Shown here: positions 13,561 through 26,724 of the stretch, in pieces | How the letters are laid out: each line of letters opens with the position of its first letter | Numbering within the stretch: the first letter of the stretch is position 1 | Source: Treponema sp. | GTDB lineage: Bacteria > Spirochaetota > Spirochaetia > Treponematales > Treponemataceae | Direction of reading: 5' to 3' | Assembly: GCA_024681195.1 (NCBI GenBank) | Contig: JAILBH010000094.1 | Span: forward strand, 1 to 33,247 | DNA: 33,247 nt | Translations under genes and position numbers: made by a program | The notes under the pieces: generated by a model | What the model was told of the DNA's origin: nothing | The model's input: the letters and a program-made list of their open reading frames with translations, nothing else | The model's database searches: none

Positions 13561-13590
13561 TTGACAATAAACTTCATCATAGAGTATAAT
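13561..13590 (+). promoter_or_regulatory. Consensus sigma70-type promoter
   Basis: TTGACA (13561-13566), 18-nt spacer, TATAAT (13585-13590), ahead of the TTG start at 13637. Confidence 0.75.
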
Positions 13591-13636: not shown

Positions 13637-15532
13637 TTGAAGCGTTTTTGCATTGCAGCAGGTATCTTATTTCTTTTTATTTTTAAATTACCTGCCGCAG
13701 ACTTTACTTTTACAGCAGCCCCAGCAGTAAATATCCAGTTAGATAAAAAAATGCCAATCGGTTTTTCTGGTTTTATTCAGGCCGATTTAAATCTTTTTAG
13801 TTTTTTAACCTTTGGTATTGAAGGAAACTATTCCATGTTTAAGCCGGATGGTTTTACAAAACCTATTCAGCTTTATGGAGGCGGTCTTGATTTAGGACTT
13901 TATTTTTTCCCGCTTTCACGTATTTATACAGGAATAGGCGGTGGTTTTGGTATTAATTCCGGTTATGTAAATGTACGGGAAGCAAATGCAGTTTATGCAA
14001 CCTACAATCCAAACGGACTATATTATCACGGTTATGCAGATTTAGGCTTCCGCTTTAATCCAAATTTTATTCTTACAATAAATGGTGGTTATTTATCTTA
14101 CATAAAGAAGGATTTTTCTAATTTTAACAATGGCTTTTATGCAGGAGTTGGAATTAAAATAAATAAAACTGTTGGAAGCAGTGCAAGAAAAGCAAAGGCT
14201 GTAACAGTCAGTCTTGAACAGTACGGAGATATCTATCCTTCATTCAGCAGAATTTACCGTGATAATGAATGCGGTATGCTTACAATTACAAATCATGAGT
14301 CTGCAGAAATTCGTAACGTTCATATTTATTTTGATGCAGACAAATATACCTCGAATGTAATTGAATGTGGTCATGTTTCCAGAATAAACCGCTATAAGAG
14401 TACACAGATTCCTTTGTATATTGATTTTTCGGATGCCATCATGAGCTTTAGTGAGAACGGACTCATTCCAGGAACCGTTACTATTGATTATGAAATCCTT
14501 GGTCAAAAAAGACAGATTAAACAAAGTGTAAACCTTTCTATACGAAACCGAAACGCTTTTGTATGGAGTGATAAGGCTGCATTAAGTTCCTTTGTTTCTT
14601 CAGAAACTCCGGAAATTCAGAACTTTGCAAAATCTGTAGCGGGGATTGCCCGAAACCAGCTTGCAACAGGTATGAACAGAAACATTCAGTTTGCTGCAGG
14701 TATGTTCCTTGCTCTTCGTTGTGCAAATATTACTTATTCAGAAGATACTCTTACACCTTTTATAAGCTATCATGCCACCGAAGAAGAAGATTCTATTCTT
14801 TATCCTTTGCAGACAATGGAATGTCTTAGCGGAGACTATGATGATATTGGTATTCTTCTTATGTCTTGTCTTGAATCCCAGGGTATAAGCTGTGCCTATA
14901 TGGTTACCGAAGATGATTTTATTGTATTTGTAGATTTAGCGCTTTCTCCTTCTGCTGCCACAAATCATTTTGTAGATTTGGAATCGGTTTTGATTGATGA
15001 AGAACAAAATAAAGTTTATCTTCCACTTTCTATGGCAGAATATGAACATGGATTTACAACAAGTAAAAACAAGGGTGCTTATGAACTTAAAAAGCTCCTG
15101 CTTGATGAAGAAGGAATCTATGAGTTTATTCTTGTAGAAGAAGCCTGGACCGTTTATAAGCCTGTTGTATTTAATGTTGCTTCTCAGAATCTTCCAAAGC
15201 CTTCAGATACATATCTTGTTGAACAGCTTGATACTGCCGTTAACAACTATATTTATACAGATTTGAATCCTATTGTAGAAAATCTTAAGAAAACCGGCGA
15301 TCATAATAAGATTGGTGTTGCTCTTGTTCGTGCAAAGCGCTATTCAGAAGCAAAGGCAGAATTCCAAAAGGCAGGAACTGCAGCTGCAATGAATAATATT
15401 GCAAACATCTGTACTATTGAACAAAATTATGACGAAGCCATGAAGATGTATCAGAAAGCTCTGGAAATGGATCCGGGAAATAAGACGGCTCAATCAGGAC
15501 TTGATAACTTAAAAAATAAGCTTGGATTATAG
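13637..15532 (+). CDS. Exported beta-barrel-like / transglutaminase-like-fold protein with C-terminal TPR; catalytic residues lost
   Basis: Signal peptide MKRFCIAAGILFLFIFKLPAA; alternating beta segments; paralogous to the next gene; GDYDD and EDDFIVFVD replace GDCDD and PGHIYIAFD; TPR motif near C-terminus. Confidence 0.75.
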   Translation: MKRFCIAAGILFLFIFKLPAADFTFTAAPAVNIQLDKKMPIGFSGFIQADLNLFSFLTFGIEGNYSMFKPDGFTKPIQLYGGGLDLGLYFFPLSRIYTGIGGGFGINSGYVNVREANAVYATYNPNGLYYHGYADLGFRFNPNFILTINGGYLSYIKKDFSNFNNGFYAGVGIKINKTVGSSARKAKAVTVSLEQYGDIYPSFSRIYRDNECGMLTITNHESAEIRNVHIYFDADKYTSNVIECGHVSRINRYKSTQIPLYIDFSDAIMSFSENGLIPGTVTIDYEILGQKRQIKQSVNLSIRNRNAFVWSDKAALSSFVSSETPEIQNFAKSVAGIARNQLATGMNRNIQFAAGMFLALRCANITYSEDTLTPFISYHATEEEDSILYPLQTMECLSGDYDDIGILLMSCLESQGISCAYMVTEDDFIVFVDLALSPSAATNHFVDLESVLIDEEQNKVYLPLSMAEYEHGFTTSKNKGAYELKKLLLDEEGIYEFILVEEAWTVYKPVVFNVASQNLPKPSDTYLVEQLDTAVNNYIYTDLNPIVENLKKTGDHNKIGVALVRAKRYSEAKAEFQKAGTAAAMNNIANICTIEQNYDEAMKMYQKALEMDPGNKTAQSGLDNLKNKLGL

Positions 15533-15545
15533 AGCGGAGAAAGGA

Positions 15546-17156
15546 ATGAAGCTCGTAAGCAAAAAATCAGTTTTTTGTGCAGTTCTTTTATATGTTTTCT
15601 CCTTCTGCGGAATTTTACCGCTGGCTCAGGCAAAAGCAGCAGAATTTTCTATAAGGGCTTTTCCAATATATACTTATTTTAGTAATGATCTTTGTAAGCT
15701 TGGACTTGGTGGAACTGCAGCTTTTGATTTTTCTCCTGCTACATTCCGTGCAAATGACAAGCTGCTTTTTTCTGTACAGGGTTCTTATGTAAATATGATT
15801 GAAGACGGAATTAATGCCGAAAACTATATTGATTATGGTATTGGAGCCGGCTATTCCTTTAGATTAAGCGACCGCTTTTATATGTATCCGGAACTCTTAG
15901 GTGGAATCTGGACAATTATTCAAAACAAAAAAAACAAGCTTCCTTCAGAAAGAGGCTTTTTATACGGAGCAAGACTTTCGTTTGAATTTCACATTCTTCC
16001 GGAGTTATATGCTTCTCTAAATGCAGGCTATAAATCACTTAATCTTTTAGATGGAATTCTTTCGCATAGTATTCATGCAGGAATTGGAATTACCTATAAT
16101 TTTTCTAAGGGCCTGCGTTATTCTTCTAATATTAGTATTCCAGAGGTAGATTTAAGTCCGCTTTTTCCGGTTTTTTATGCGCATTATATTGATAATCCTT
16201 TTGGAACAATTACTCTTGCAAATAATGAAGAAGCCGCAATTACCGATGTCCATGTGTATTTTTACAATGAACAGTATATGCTTGCCAGAACTCTTGTGGG
16301 CTCCTTTGATAAAATCAAACAGGGAGAACAGGTTAAGATTCAGATTACGGCTCTCTTAAACGAAAGCATCCTTTCACAGCTTTCCGAATCAATGACAACA
16401 GCTCAGGTTACAGTTGAATATAAGCTTTTAAATAAAGCAAAGGATTATTCACAGACTCTTTCATTTACAACCTTAAGCCGTAACTCTATGACCTGGGAAG
16501 ATGACAGACAGGCTGCAGCTTTTGCTTCTCCAAGAGATTCCTGTGCTCAAAAATTTGCCAGGCAGGTTAAATCAATTGTAAAATCTTCGGTTCGTAAAGA
16601 TATTCCTTTGAATATTCAGTATGCAGGTGCGCTTTTCTGTGCTCTCAAAGAATATGGAATTAACTATGTAATAGACCCGAGTTCTGCATATTCAGATAAT
16701 ACTGGTGGACTTACAATAGACTTCCTTCAGTTTCCTTATCAGACCCTCTCTTATCACGGTGGAGACTGTGATGACCTTTCTATTATGAATTGTTCGCTGC
16801 TTGAAGCAATTGGAATTAAAACTGCGTTTGTAACAATTCCTGGTCATATTTATATTGCATTTGATTCCGGGGTTTCTGAAGAAGAGGCAAAAACTCAAAT
16901 TCCAAACGGGCACTATGTTGTAAAAGATGGGGTTGTATGGATTCCTTATGAAATTACACTTTGCACCGATACCTTTGATCTGGCGCTTAGAACCGGATAC
17001 AGCCAGTGGGAAAAAGCAGGGGAGGCTGCAGCTTTAATTCCTTTAAAGGATGCGTGGGCTGCATTTAAAGCAGTAAGCGTGCCCGAATCAGATACTTCCA
17101 TTCAGTTCCCGGAACACGAAAGAATTCTAAAATCTTTTGCTAATTTAACCTATTAA
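15546..17156 (+). CDS. Exported beta-barrel-like / transglutaminase-like cysteine-protease-fold protein
   Basis: Signal peptide MKLVSKKSVFCAVLLYVFSFCGILPLAQAKA; barrel-like N-terminal region; HGGDCDDLSIMNCSLLEAIGIKTAFVTIPGHIYIAFD; VVWIPYEIT. Confidence 0.75.
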   Translation: MKLVSKKSVFCAVLLYVFSFCGILPLAQAKAAEFSIRAFPIYTYFSNDLCKLGLGGTAAFDFSPATFRANDKLLFSVQGSYVNMIEDGINAENYIDYGIGAGYSFRLSDRFYMYPELLGGIWTIIQNKKNKLPSERGFLYGARLSFEFHILPELYASLNAGYKSLNLLDGILSHSIHAGIGITYNFSKGLRYSSNISIPEVDLSPLFPVFYAHYIDNPFGTITLANNEEAAITDVHVYFYNEQYMLARTLVGSFDKIKQGEQVKIQITALLNESILSQLSESMTTAQVTVEYKLLNKAKDYSQTLSFTTLSRNSMTWEDDRQAAAFASPRDSCAQKFARQVKSIVKSSVRKDIPLNIQYAGALFCALKEYGINYVIDPSSAYSDNTGGLTIDFLQFPYQTLSYHGGDCDDLSIMNCSLLEAIGIKTAFVTIPGHIYIAFDSGVSEEEAKTQIPNGHYVVKDGVVWIPYEITLCTDTFDLALRTGYSQWEKAGEAAALIPLKDAWAAFKAVSVPESDTSIQFPEHERILKSFANLTY

Positions 17157-24047: not shown

Positions 24048-24587
24048 TTAATGGCGGTAAAAATCGACGATAGAACGGCCATAAATTCGCTGATCTGTAC
24101 GTTTTAATGAGCCGATTGTATCAGGCATAAAATGCTCTTCCGGTCTGTGAACCATAATTATACCATCAGGTGAAAGCATTCCGTTTTTGTCGGCCTGTTC
24201 TACAAGCTGTTCGTGAAATTTATAAGGGAAGGGTGGATCAAAAAAAATATAATCAAAAGATTTCTTACAACGTTTAATAAAATATTCTACAGGCATAAAA
24301 TGACATTGAATTTTTATGCCCAATTCTTTTTCTGTAATTTTTACATTATTTAAAAGTGTGGAAGTTTTGATTTTGTCTTTTTCGCAAAGTTCAATATGGG
24401 TTGCTCCGCGGGATGCTGCTTCAATTGCAATTGTTCCCGAACCCGAAAAAAGATCAAGCCAGGATTTTCCGGTAAGGTCACCAAGTATAGAAAAAACAGA
24501 TTCACGCATTCTGTCCATGGCCGGTCTGATTATTCCGTCAGGGCATTCGATGATTCTTCCTTTTAATGTTCCGCCAGTTATTCTCAT
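24048..24587 (-). CDS. rsmD: 16S rRNA (guanine(966)-N(2))-methyltransferase
   Basis: MRITGGTLKGRIIECP...RPAMDRMRESVFSIL; WLDLFSGSGTIAIEAASRGA; FDYIFFDPPFPY. Confidence 0.95.
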   Translation of the reverse strand: MRITGGTLKGRIIECPDGIIRPAMDRMRESVFSILGDLTGKSWLDLFSGSGTIAIEAASRGATHIELCEKDKIKTSTLLNNVKITEKELGIKIQCHFMPVEYFIKRCKKSFDYIFFDPPFPYKFHEQLVEQADKNGMLSPDGIIMVHRPEEHFMPDTIGSLKRTDQRIYGRSIVDFYRH

Positions 24588-26671
24588 TTTTTATTTAAAG
24601 CCCAGTAAGTGTCATCATGTGGTAAAGAGGAATTCTGTTTTGCAAAATCAAAAGCAGTTTTACCATCGGAAGTACGAAGTGAAGTTGAAGCACCGTATTC
24701 AAGCAGCTTTTTAATGATTGCAGTGGAAGATGAATATTGTGCAGCATACATAAGAGGACTCTTTCCATTGTAGAATGTATTTAGAGGAATTGCTTTTTGA
24801 AGGAATAGTTCTGTTTTGGCAAGCTTTGAAGAATCACTTACAGAATTATCAGAAAGCATAAGGATAAATGCCTGCATGACGTCTTTTTCCAAAGCTGTGT
24901 AATATGAAAGAAGCTTTTTAATTACAGCAGGATTTGAATTATAAGTCGCAGCAAGCGAAAGAGCCGAAACATTAAAACGGTTTTTATTTTTAATATCTGC
25001 GCCCTGTCCAATAAGCTGCTCAATTATTATAAGATTTTCCTGATAGCGAACTGCATACATAAGGGCTGTCCAGCCGTCATTATCTTTTAGATTTACGTTT
25101 GCACCCGAAGTAATAAGTTTTTTTAATTCCTTATCATTTCCAGTTTTTGCAGCATTCATTAAGAGTGTAACACCTTTTGAATCTGCCTCGTCAGGATTAA
25201 GAATTATATTTTCATCTTCGTCCTCATCATCAGACGGAAGAGCAATTGTCTTTTTGGGTGCGTAATCAAGAAGGTTTTCTCTCTGATAACGGTTTACGTT
25301 TGTTGTGGCTTCGGTGCTTATAGGAAGCTCGAATGTGCTTTCGGGTTCGGTTGCAGCTGGTGTGGCAGTTTCAACAGGGGCTTGGGCTTCAGTTGGTGCA
25401 GGTGTTGGTTCGGGTTCTGGTGCGGCAGCGGCTTCTTGTGTTTCAGTTGCTGCTGGCAGAGGTGCTGGTTCTGGTATTGCAGCTTGTGTCGGAACCGGAA
25501 CAGGGGCAGGAGTTACAACAGGAGCCGGGGTTGGAGCCGGTACTGGTGCAGGTGCTGGCGTTGCAGCGGGAGCCGGTATTGACGGTGTTTGTGCAACAGA
25601 AGGTGAAGGAATTGGCTGTACCTGGCTTGGTGGATTTAAGAATTCTGTATATTCAGCATTGTTTTTTTCTGGATGTAGAATATCCGGCTCAGAAAAACGT
25701 GAGGCAGTCTTTGGCTCAGATGTGGTTGTGGCTTCTACAGGGGTAGAGGTTACGACTTGGGCTTGAGTTGCAGCTGGAGTTTGGGTTGCTGCTGGAGTTT
25801 GGGTTGCTGCTGGGGCCGGAGTTTCGGTTTGTGCGGTGGCTGCTGCTGGAGTTGTTGTTTCAGCTTGAGCTGGGGCCGGAGTTTCGGCTTGTGCGGGGGC
25901 TTCAGCTACGTCAGTGGATTCAACCGGTGCGGGGGCTTCAGCTACGTCAGTGGATTCAACCGGTGCGAGGGCTGCAGCTTCTTCAGCAGCTTGATCCGGC
26001 TGGGCTGTGGCTGCGACCTGTGCTGTGGCTGCGACCTGGGCTGTGGCTTCAACCGGTTCGGCGGCTGCAACAGCTTCTCTTGATTCAAACGGCGCAGCAG
26101 CTGCAGCTTCTTCAGCAGCTTTTTCTTCCGGAGCTGTAGCTGCAACTTCTTCAACAGATTCCGGCTCTGCTTCCGGTGCCGGGGCTACTTCAGTTTCGGC
26201 TTCTGCAACAGAAGCTTCTGGAGTTTCTTCAGGTGTTGTAATTTCAAGTTTTGTAGGTTGGGTAAGATAATTAGTAAAAAAATATTTTTCGTAAGTATCT
26301 GCAACGCCAAACGCAGAAATATCTTCCTTTACCTTTTTGAATTCATCGGCAAAGAATTTTTCGGGATTTTTGGTAATATAAGTTTTGTTTTTGGCAATAC
26401 AATAATCTTTATCAGGTTTAAGAGAATTTGCAATCCAGATAAGAACAATTTGTTCACGACTGTCTACAGGCCCGCAGACAACGTTTCCTGCTTTTGTTTT
26501 ATTTTTGAGTTCACAAATGTACCAGCTTTTTGGAGTTTCTTCAGTTTCGTTTATTTTTGACAGAACATTAGAAGGTATATTAGAAAGCTCTTTCTTTTTT
26601 GCAGAAAAAGCCTGGGAACTTATTAAAGACAGGAACAGAAAAACTAAAACAATTCTTCTCTTAAAATTCAT
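24584..26671 (-). CDS. Exported ankyrin-repeat protein with long Pro/Ala/Glu/Thr low-complexity linker
   Basis: Signal peptide MNFKRRIVLVFLFLSLISSQAFSA; low-complexity VAATAQ, ESTDVAEAPAPV and TPAATQ repeats; C-terminal ankyrin repeats (KGVTLLMNAAKTGNDKELKKLITSGANVNLKDNDGWTALMYAV). Confidence 0.88.
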   Translation of the reverse strand: MNFKRRIVLVFLFLSLISSQAFSAKKKELSNIPSNVLSKINETEETPKSWYICELKNKTKAGNVVCGPVDSREQIVLIWIANSLKPDKDYCIAKNKTYITKNPEKFFADEFKKVKEDISAFGVADTYEKYFFTNYLTQPTKLEITTPEETPEASVAEAETEVAPAPEAEPESVEEVAATAPEEKAAEEAAAAAPFESREAVAAAEPVEATAQVAATAQVAATAQPDQAAEEAAALAPVESTDVAEAPAPVESTDVAEAPAQAETPAPAQAETTTPAAATAQTETPAPAATQTPAATQTPAATQAQVVTSTPVEATTTSEPKTASRFSEPDILHPEKNNAEYTEFLNPPSQVQPIPSPSVAQTPSIPAPAATPAPAPVPAPTPAPVVTPAPVPVPTQAAIPEPAPLPAATETQEAAAAPEPEPTPAPTEAQAPVETATPAATEPESTFELPISTEATTNVNRYQRENLLDYAPKKTIALPSDDEDEDENIILNPDEADSKGVTLLMNAAKTGNDKELKKLITSGANVNLKDNDGWTALMYAVRYQENLIIIEQLIGQGADIKNKNRFNVSALSLAATYNSNPAVIKKLLSYYTALEKDVMQAFILMLSDNSVSDSSKLAKTELFLQKAIPLNTFYNGKSPLMYAAQYSSSTAIIKKLLEYGASTSLRTSDGKTAFDFAKQNSSLPHDDTYWALNKK
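25767..25820. repeat. 18-bp in-frame tandem repeat, about 3 units
   Basis: gttgcagctggagtttgg / gttgctgctggagtttgg / gttgctgctggggccgga; encodes (TPAATQ)n on the minus strand. Confidence 0.85.
25895..25966. repeat. 36-bp in-frame perfect tandem duplication
   Basis: gggggcttcagctacgtcagtggattcaaccggtgc twice, at 25895-25930 and 25931-25966; 12-aa unit VESTDVAEAPAP. Confidence 0.92.
26004..26039. repeat. 18-bp in-frame tandem duplication
   Basis: gctgtggctgcgacctgt / gctgtggctgcgacctgg; encodes (VAATAQ)2 on the minus strand. Confidence 0.85.
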
Positions 26672-26724
26672 TTCTATATTATACTCCATATTATAATTTT
26701 TTACAATGATAGCCTATATCCTTA

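Follow-up and report, generated by a model that had tools for sequence, protein, structure and literature searches.

A predicted barrel-anchored enzyme/pseudoenzyme pair of the transglutaminase fold in gut Treponema and its likely link to tagged giant lipoproteins

Why would a gut Treponema encode, side by side, two exported proteins that join a barrel-like region to a transglutaminase (TG)-like domain, and on what might such a pair act? The question is raised by a 33,247-nucleotide stretch of Treponema DNA (hereafter the window), for which a preliminary description had proposed a pair of enzymes in envelope remodeling or protein maturation. We analyzed both proteins by structure prediction and profile searches, and compared the gene neighborhoods of their relatives.

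Both ORFs lie on the forward strand, separated by 13 bases. ORF1 (positions 13637 to 15532) has a TTG start and encodes a protein of 631 amino acids (protein A), while ORF2 (15546 to 17156) has an ATG start and encodes a protein of 536 amino acids (protein B). Their coordinates agree with the adjacent exported ORFs first described, and inspection revealed a signal-peptide-like N-terminal helix on each. The two proteins share 24% identity over 522 amino acids (E = 3e-37) and are, by sequence comparison, paralogs. The consensus promoter reported upstream was recovered as a perfect sigma-70-type site (TTGACA-18 bp-TATAAT, 12/12 match) at 13561 to 13590 on the forward strand, the sole 12/12 site between 13400 and 17300. 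Elsewhere in the window, on the reverse strand (24584 to 26689), an exported-looking ORF shows by eye a long Pro/Ala/Glu-rich repeat stretch and terminal ankyrin-like repeats.

Predicted architecture of the two proteins

Structures were predicted with AlphaFold2 using alignments of 54 and 57 sequences (window protein plus relatives), with mean pLDDT values of 90.3 for ORF2 and 90.2 for ORF1, respectively. In both models, eight barrel strands are followed by a beta-sandwich and a TG core, to which ORF1 adds a TPR tail. The barrel comprises amino acids 21-179 of ORF1 (13697 to 14173, forward strand), where Foldseek matched NspA, OmpA and OprF, and amino acids 33-185 of ORF2 (15642 to 16100, forward strand), where it matched OmpA, Ail and OmpX; the ORF2 barrel also matches Pfam OMP_b-brl, under the cut-off (E = 1.2e-4). 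The nearest folds in the PDB were eight-stranded barrels (OmpA, Ail, NspA and OmpX; E down to 1e-6), followed by weaker matches (E about 1e-3) to factor XIIIa and TG2 and, for ORF2, to protein 4.2. Each predicted structure has the eight transmembrane beta strands of an OmpA/OmpX-like barrel, in agreement with the barrel-like region proposed for both N-termini, and these models make a barrel-anchored architecture highly probable. OmpA, OmpX and NspA share this barrel fold, but they carry a peptidoglycan-binding domain or none, and not a TG domain.

The linker of matching design that had been noted behind both barrels is present, but it corresponds to the start of the beta-sandwich domain, which AlphaFold2 places at amino acids 196-316 of ORF2 (16131 to 16493, forward strand). 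The TG core of ORF2 follows at amino acids 320-510 (16503 to 17075, forward strand; AlphaFold2, Foldseek). In this model, Cys408 starts a helix (408-421) and His434 lies on a strand (434-440), which is the Transglut_core-type layout of a Cys at a helix N-terminus and then a His on a strand. ORF1 ends, as first described, in TPR helices (amino acids 524-629; 15206 to 15523, forward strand), supported by both AlphaFold2 and Pfam TPR_1 (E = 7.6e-10).

At the profile level, the catalytic core aligns with Transglut_core (PF01841), and one relative (L064) passes the Pfam cut-off (24.4 versus 23 bits), whereas ORF2 itself reaches only 12.4 bits and stays below it. Nothing that we found describes a barrel fusion or pairing for Transglut_core. 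The beta-sandwich and TG unit also aligns with the first ~300 of the 1903 positions of NF058533 (antiphage_ProA; E = 1.6e-12 with ORF2). This match amounts to 45.7 bits over 221-495, against a cut-off of 1500 bits, and the remaining 1600 positions are absent; sub-cut-off matches to the same profile occur in 7/14 control genomes, and PADLOC gave no defense-system match. A phage-defense protein is ruled out, as the ProA match is far under the cut-off and limited to a common domain unit.

Active-site residues and history of the pair

ORF2 carries a complete triad on the forward strand, formed by the predicted nucleophile Cys408 (GGDCDD; 16767 to 16769), invariant in the B alignments, and by His434 (PGH; 16845 to 16847) and Glu469 (16950 to 16952; Asp in BTLCPs), both invariant among ORF2 relatives. 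By alignment, the equivalent positions of ORF1 hold Tyr401 (Cys position; 14837 to 14839, forward strand), Asp427 (His position; 14915 to 14917) and Ser465 (Glu position; 15029 to 15031). The TG-like core proposed for both proteins stood as a predicted fold in each, while its catalytic residues were found intact in ORF2 and missing from ORF1.

The same arrangement was seen in 95 distinct adjacent pairs from Treponema and relatives, sampled from the neighborhoods of relatives and from named genomes including T. bryantii, T. ruminis and T. zioleckii. In all 95, the first gene is without the full triad and the second encodes C-H-E, mostly with a spacing of no more than 36 bp. Among the A proteins, the residue at the Cys position varies, that at the His position is nearly always Asp (90/95) or Glu (4/95), and Ser (81/95) or Ala (11/95) mostly takes the place of Glu; the six that keep the Cys all lack the other two triad residues. 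The third residue is Glu in every one of 59 active sequences and in all 95 B proteins. Genes found singly also have C-H-E, except for L054 (Gln-His-Glu) and L043, an A protein whose partner is cut off where the contig ends. Since the replacements at the His and Glu positions of A are themselves conserved, they point to a kept function rather than to decay. ORF1 retains the fold, has lost the catalytic residues and shares that loss with its counterparts, and is by fold and residues a pseudoenzyme; that A and B constitute a pseudoenzyme/enzyme pair is, in our estimation, nearly certain. The absence of a full triad from all A proteins rules out two active enzymes, and the original idea of a pair of enzymes was abandoned in favor of one conserved pseudoenzyme placed before one likely active member. 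Acidic residues flank Cys408 of ORF2 (D407 and D409) and are retained in most A proteins; they might correspond to the acidic Ca2+-site residues beside the Cys of DvhG (D316/E318), but GDCDD is common in TG folds.

Inactive TG-fold proteins are known from protein 4.2 (EPB42) and menin, in which a fold with a lost active site serves as a scaffold (PMC10318531). Unlike ORF1, these proteins are eukaryotic, have no barrel anchor and show no fixed pairing with an active twin.

In a tree of 124 TG domains, the A proteins form one clade (SH-aLRT 100) and the B proteins one group (72), with unpaired barrel-TG-TPR proteins making up a third group. Distances among A proteins correlate with those among B proteins (r = 0.885; permuted maximum 0.15 in 2,000 permutations), and the A and B trees have 29/49 splits in common, compared with no more than 2 in 500 relabelings. 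This fits one old duplication and one active-site loss, after which the pair was duplicated as a unit. Three pairs are encoded in the genome of the window itself (in the window and on contigs C173 and C174).

Tagged giant lipoproteins in the neighborhoods and genomes of the pairs

TG genes have as neighbors giant Ig-like lipoproteins (600 to more than 3,000 amino acids) with a common N-terminal module. Directly after the lipidated Cys, this module carries a tag (C-x-N-[FW]-[LM]...IE..[IV]..ANA), in which the spacing between the lipidated Cys and the final Ala of ANA equals 23 residues in 39 of the 43 strict-pattern lipoproteins, a lower bound because the strict pattern misses members with shifted spacing (for example, at L041 and L092). 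Away from N-termini, the strict pattern was absent from 549 ORFs. In the giants scanned, the tag module falls outside every Pfam and NCBIfam family, and no description of the pair, the tag or ProA was found in open-access papers. The N-terminal tag of the giants is previously uncatalogued.

In long-B pairs, B is mostly 700-2,000 amino acids long, many of these proteins have TPRs, and a giant Ig-like lipoprotein (Big_5 matches) lies 3' of the pair, usually overlapping it or no more than 30 bp away. Of the 31 Ig-linked B proteins, most terminate in a hydrophobic helix and a basic tail, a feature seen in 0/56 other complete B proteins. In short-B pairs, the class of the window, the genes 3' of B often encode a small secreted FecR-like protein and a CHASE2-cyclase, and a giant lies upstream of some of these pairs; at L037 and L137, the giant, A, B, FecR-like and cyclase genes all occur together. 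It should be noted that the FecR-like label of the ~137-amino-acid gene was given by eye and denotes a look-alike only, as Pfam gives no confirmation. A tagged lipoprotein is adjacent or near in 38/95 pairs, and nine unpaired TG genes have a large lipoprotein directly downstream. For 31/95 pairs, including that of the window, no giant was found within about 5 kb using a lipobox rule that overlooks broken or truncated giants.

The giants themselves show several further features. In the long-B class, those at L154, L158, L204 (all three complete or near-complete) and L207 (1131-8702) combine an N-terminal lipobox with a C-terminal hydrophobic helix and basic tail, and might span, or be sorted between, the two membranes. 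Many short-B-class giants have a common C-terminal motif resembling YTTI.HFADGT..M.DIKQK (C-termini compared at L084, L110, L122, L079, L037, L192, L195, L198 and L199), and a DUF6273-like GI.PALWI segment closes others (L186 matches DUF6273 with E = 2.9e-12). At L047 (1970-5926), a giant lipoprotein two genes 5' of the pair has a terminal FGE-sulfatase domain (E = 1.1e-35).

Close relatives of the window also have the pair; the closest of them (L095 and L096) show 72-77% identity and have the same downstream genes. A tagged lipoprotein of 1,632 amino acids lies upstream of the pair at L095, and a large upstream ORF at L096 extends beyond the start of the stretch compared. Unrelated ORFs, one of them transposase-like by eye, separate the upstream giant from the pair (L095, 5622-7423; L096, 5790-7799), which suggests an insertion or rearrangement at this position. 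In the genome of the window, contig C87 (L190) encodes a similar giant of 1,896 amino acids (CEGFFTNNDLDEKIRAAIDYAHA). Taking into account the giant upstream at L095 and the similar one on C87, the pair of the window is probably part of this tagged-giant system, though no giant is adjacent to it.

About 14 tagged giants are encoded on separate contigs of this genome, most of them with no linked TG gene. Of 196 Treponema genomes, 59 carry the tag together with the TG family, 4 the tag alone, 1 the TG family alone and 132 neither (Fisher p = 5e-44, although genomes of one genus are not independent and such p-values overstate independence). The exceptions are G342 and G411, with a tag and no TG gene, and G346, with a TG gene and no tag; of the other tag-only genomes, G008 has a typical long-B tail at a contig end just 5' of a giant, and the giant of G009 lies at a contig start. 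The position +4 of the tag is Trp in 21/27 giants beside long-B pairs and in 0/11 beside short-B pairs, and the unlinked giants of the window's genome are of the Phe type, in line with its two short-B pairs. Tag-module distances also follow B distances (Mantel r = 0.89, maximum permuted 0.41). We regard a functional link between the A/B pair and the tagged giants as likely.

Possible action of the pair

The reading that we favor, with a probability of roughly 0.55, is that A and B work as an enzyme/pseudoenzyme machine, anchored in the outer membrane and handling tagged giant lipoproteins on its periplasmic side. B would be an outer-membrane-anchored, periplasm-facing TG-fold cysteine enzyme, and A its obligate, catalytically dead partner carrying TPRs, both held in one complex with their TG domains toward the periplasm. 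The tag would be a short helix ending in Ala-Asn-Ala and spacing-locked just after the lipidated Cys; A would bind it without cutting, and B would cut or transfer at or near ANA, at a height from the membrane fixed by its own barrel. A constant distance between the ANA-ending helix and the lipid would be well matched to an enzyme kept at such a barrel-set height. The FecR-like protein and CHASE2-cyclase at many class-1 loci may provide signal input, and the clients of the window pair would be the giants scattered over the rest of its genome. That the whole amounts to a lipoprotein-sorting or release system of gut treponemes and relatives, in which B with its obligate A reads the tag and cuts or attaches the giants, has in our view somewhat less than an even chance, and cutting by B at or near ANA is a more tentative suggestion still. 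Envelope remodeling or protein maturation, as originally envisaged, is compatible with these results, but the evidence points more specifically to giant tagged lipoproteins. Against the favored reading, periplasmic cutting of an outer-membrane lipoprotein would by itself explain neither the surface display of such proteins (surface lipoproteins are reviewed in PMC7857515) nor their release.

A release protease of this fold is known in LapG, a periplasmic enzyme that releases the adhesin LapA and is restrained by LapD (PMC3032545); its relative DvhG cuts at [T/A/P]AAG, after docking of a helix on the protease (PMC13090378). B resembles both in its TG-type fold, a Cys in G-D-C-[DE], export and a genetic link to giant surface-type proteins, and in the giants, as in those systems, a helix near the anchored end precedes a small-residue motif that resembles a target site (PMC3032545, PMC13090378). 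In contrast to the soluble LapG and DvhG, B is predicted to be barrel-anchored, has C-H-E where they have C-H-D, and comes with an obligate pseudoenzyme partner; its clients would be lipoproteins, many per genome, and not T1SS adhesins. Pfam gave no LapG-family match and only weak ones to Transglut_core and DUF553, a PDB sequence search with the B alignments gave no significant TG relative, one separate PDB sequence match to a LapG-like periplasmic protein had E = 0.92, and no LapD/c-di-GMP receptor was seen in the pair neighborhoods. Membership of the LapG-type BTLCPs is ruled out by profile and triad (Glu, not Asp).

Alternatively, these barrel and TPR proteins could work as a Slam-like assembly that recognizes tagged lipoproteins and aids their surface transport or display, with the TG domain mainly binding the tag. 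We consider this unlikely, although it accounts for the retention of a dead TG domain, barrel and TPRs occur together in A and many B proteins, and the genes adjoin those of client lipoproteins, as in Slam systems. Slam has a wide C-terminal barrel after an N-terminal TPR region, whereas the barrel of ORF1 and ORF2 is N-terminal and eight-stranded, too narrow for exporting a folded giant; moreover, the invariant C-H-E of B argues for catalysis. Cross-linking is a rather improbable reading, in which B would be a transamidase joining tagged lipoproteins to peptidoglycan or envelope proteins, A a scaffold, and long B a bridge between membranes. It draws on the Foldseek matches to factor XIIIa and TG2, on the LysM-like tail of some B proteins (that of L045, which also has a generic weak TPR_Slam match) and on the C-terminal helix and basic tail of most Ig-linked B proteins, but neither Gln nor Lys is conserved in the tag, the window's short B lacks a tail, and the TG fold matches are weak and cannot tell a hydrolase from a transferase. 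Highly improbable is a signaling role, in which the pair would sense the envelope state and feed the FecR-like protein and CHASE2-cyclase, with the giants as neighbors for other reasons: these genes lie directly 3' of many class-1 pairs and FecR and CHASE2 genes share one biofilm operon elsewhere (PMC5192318), but no cyclase accompanies the pair of the window, the long-B pairs or the single-gene loci, the giant tag correlates more widely, and the by-eye FecR label lacks Pfam confirmation.

Pseudoenzyme partners are usually recognized one at a time. Here, a predicted enzyme and its apparently dead twin have remained side by side in the same order across duplications and speciation, so that a joint role can be tested. 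The link to the tagged giants identifies about a dozen likely clients per genome, unrecognized by current family databases, and would offer a way into the question of how surface proteins of very large size are displayed on, or shed from, the spirochaete envelope.
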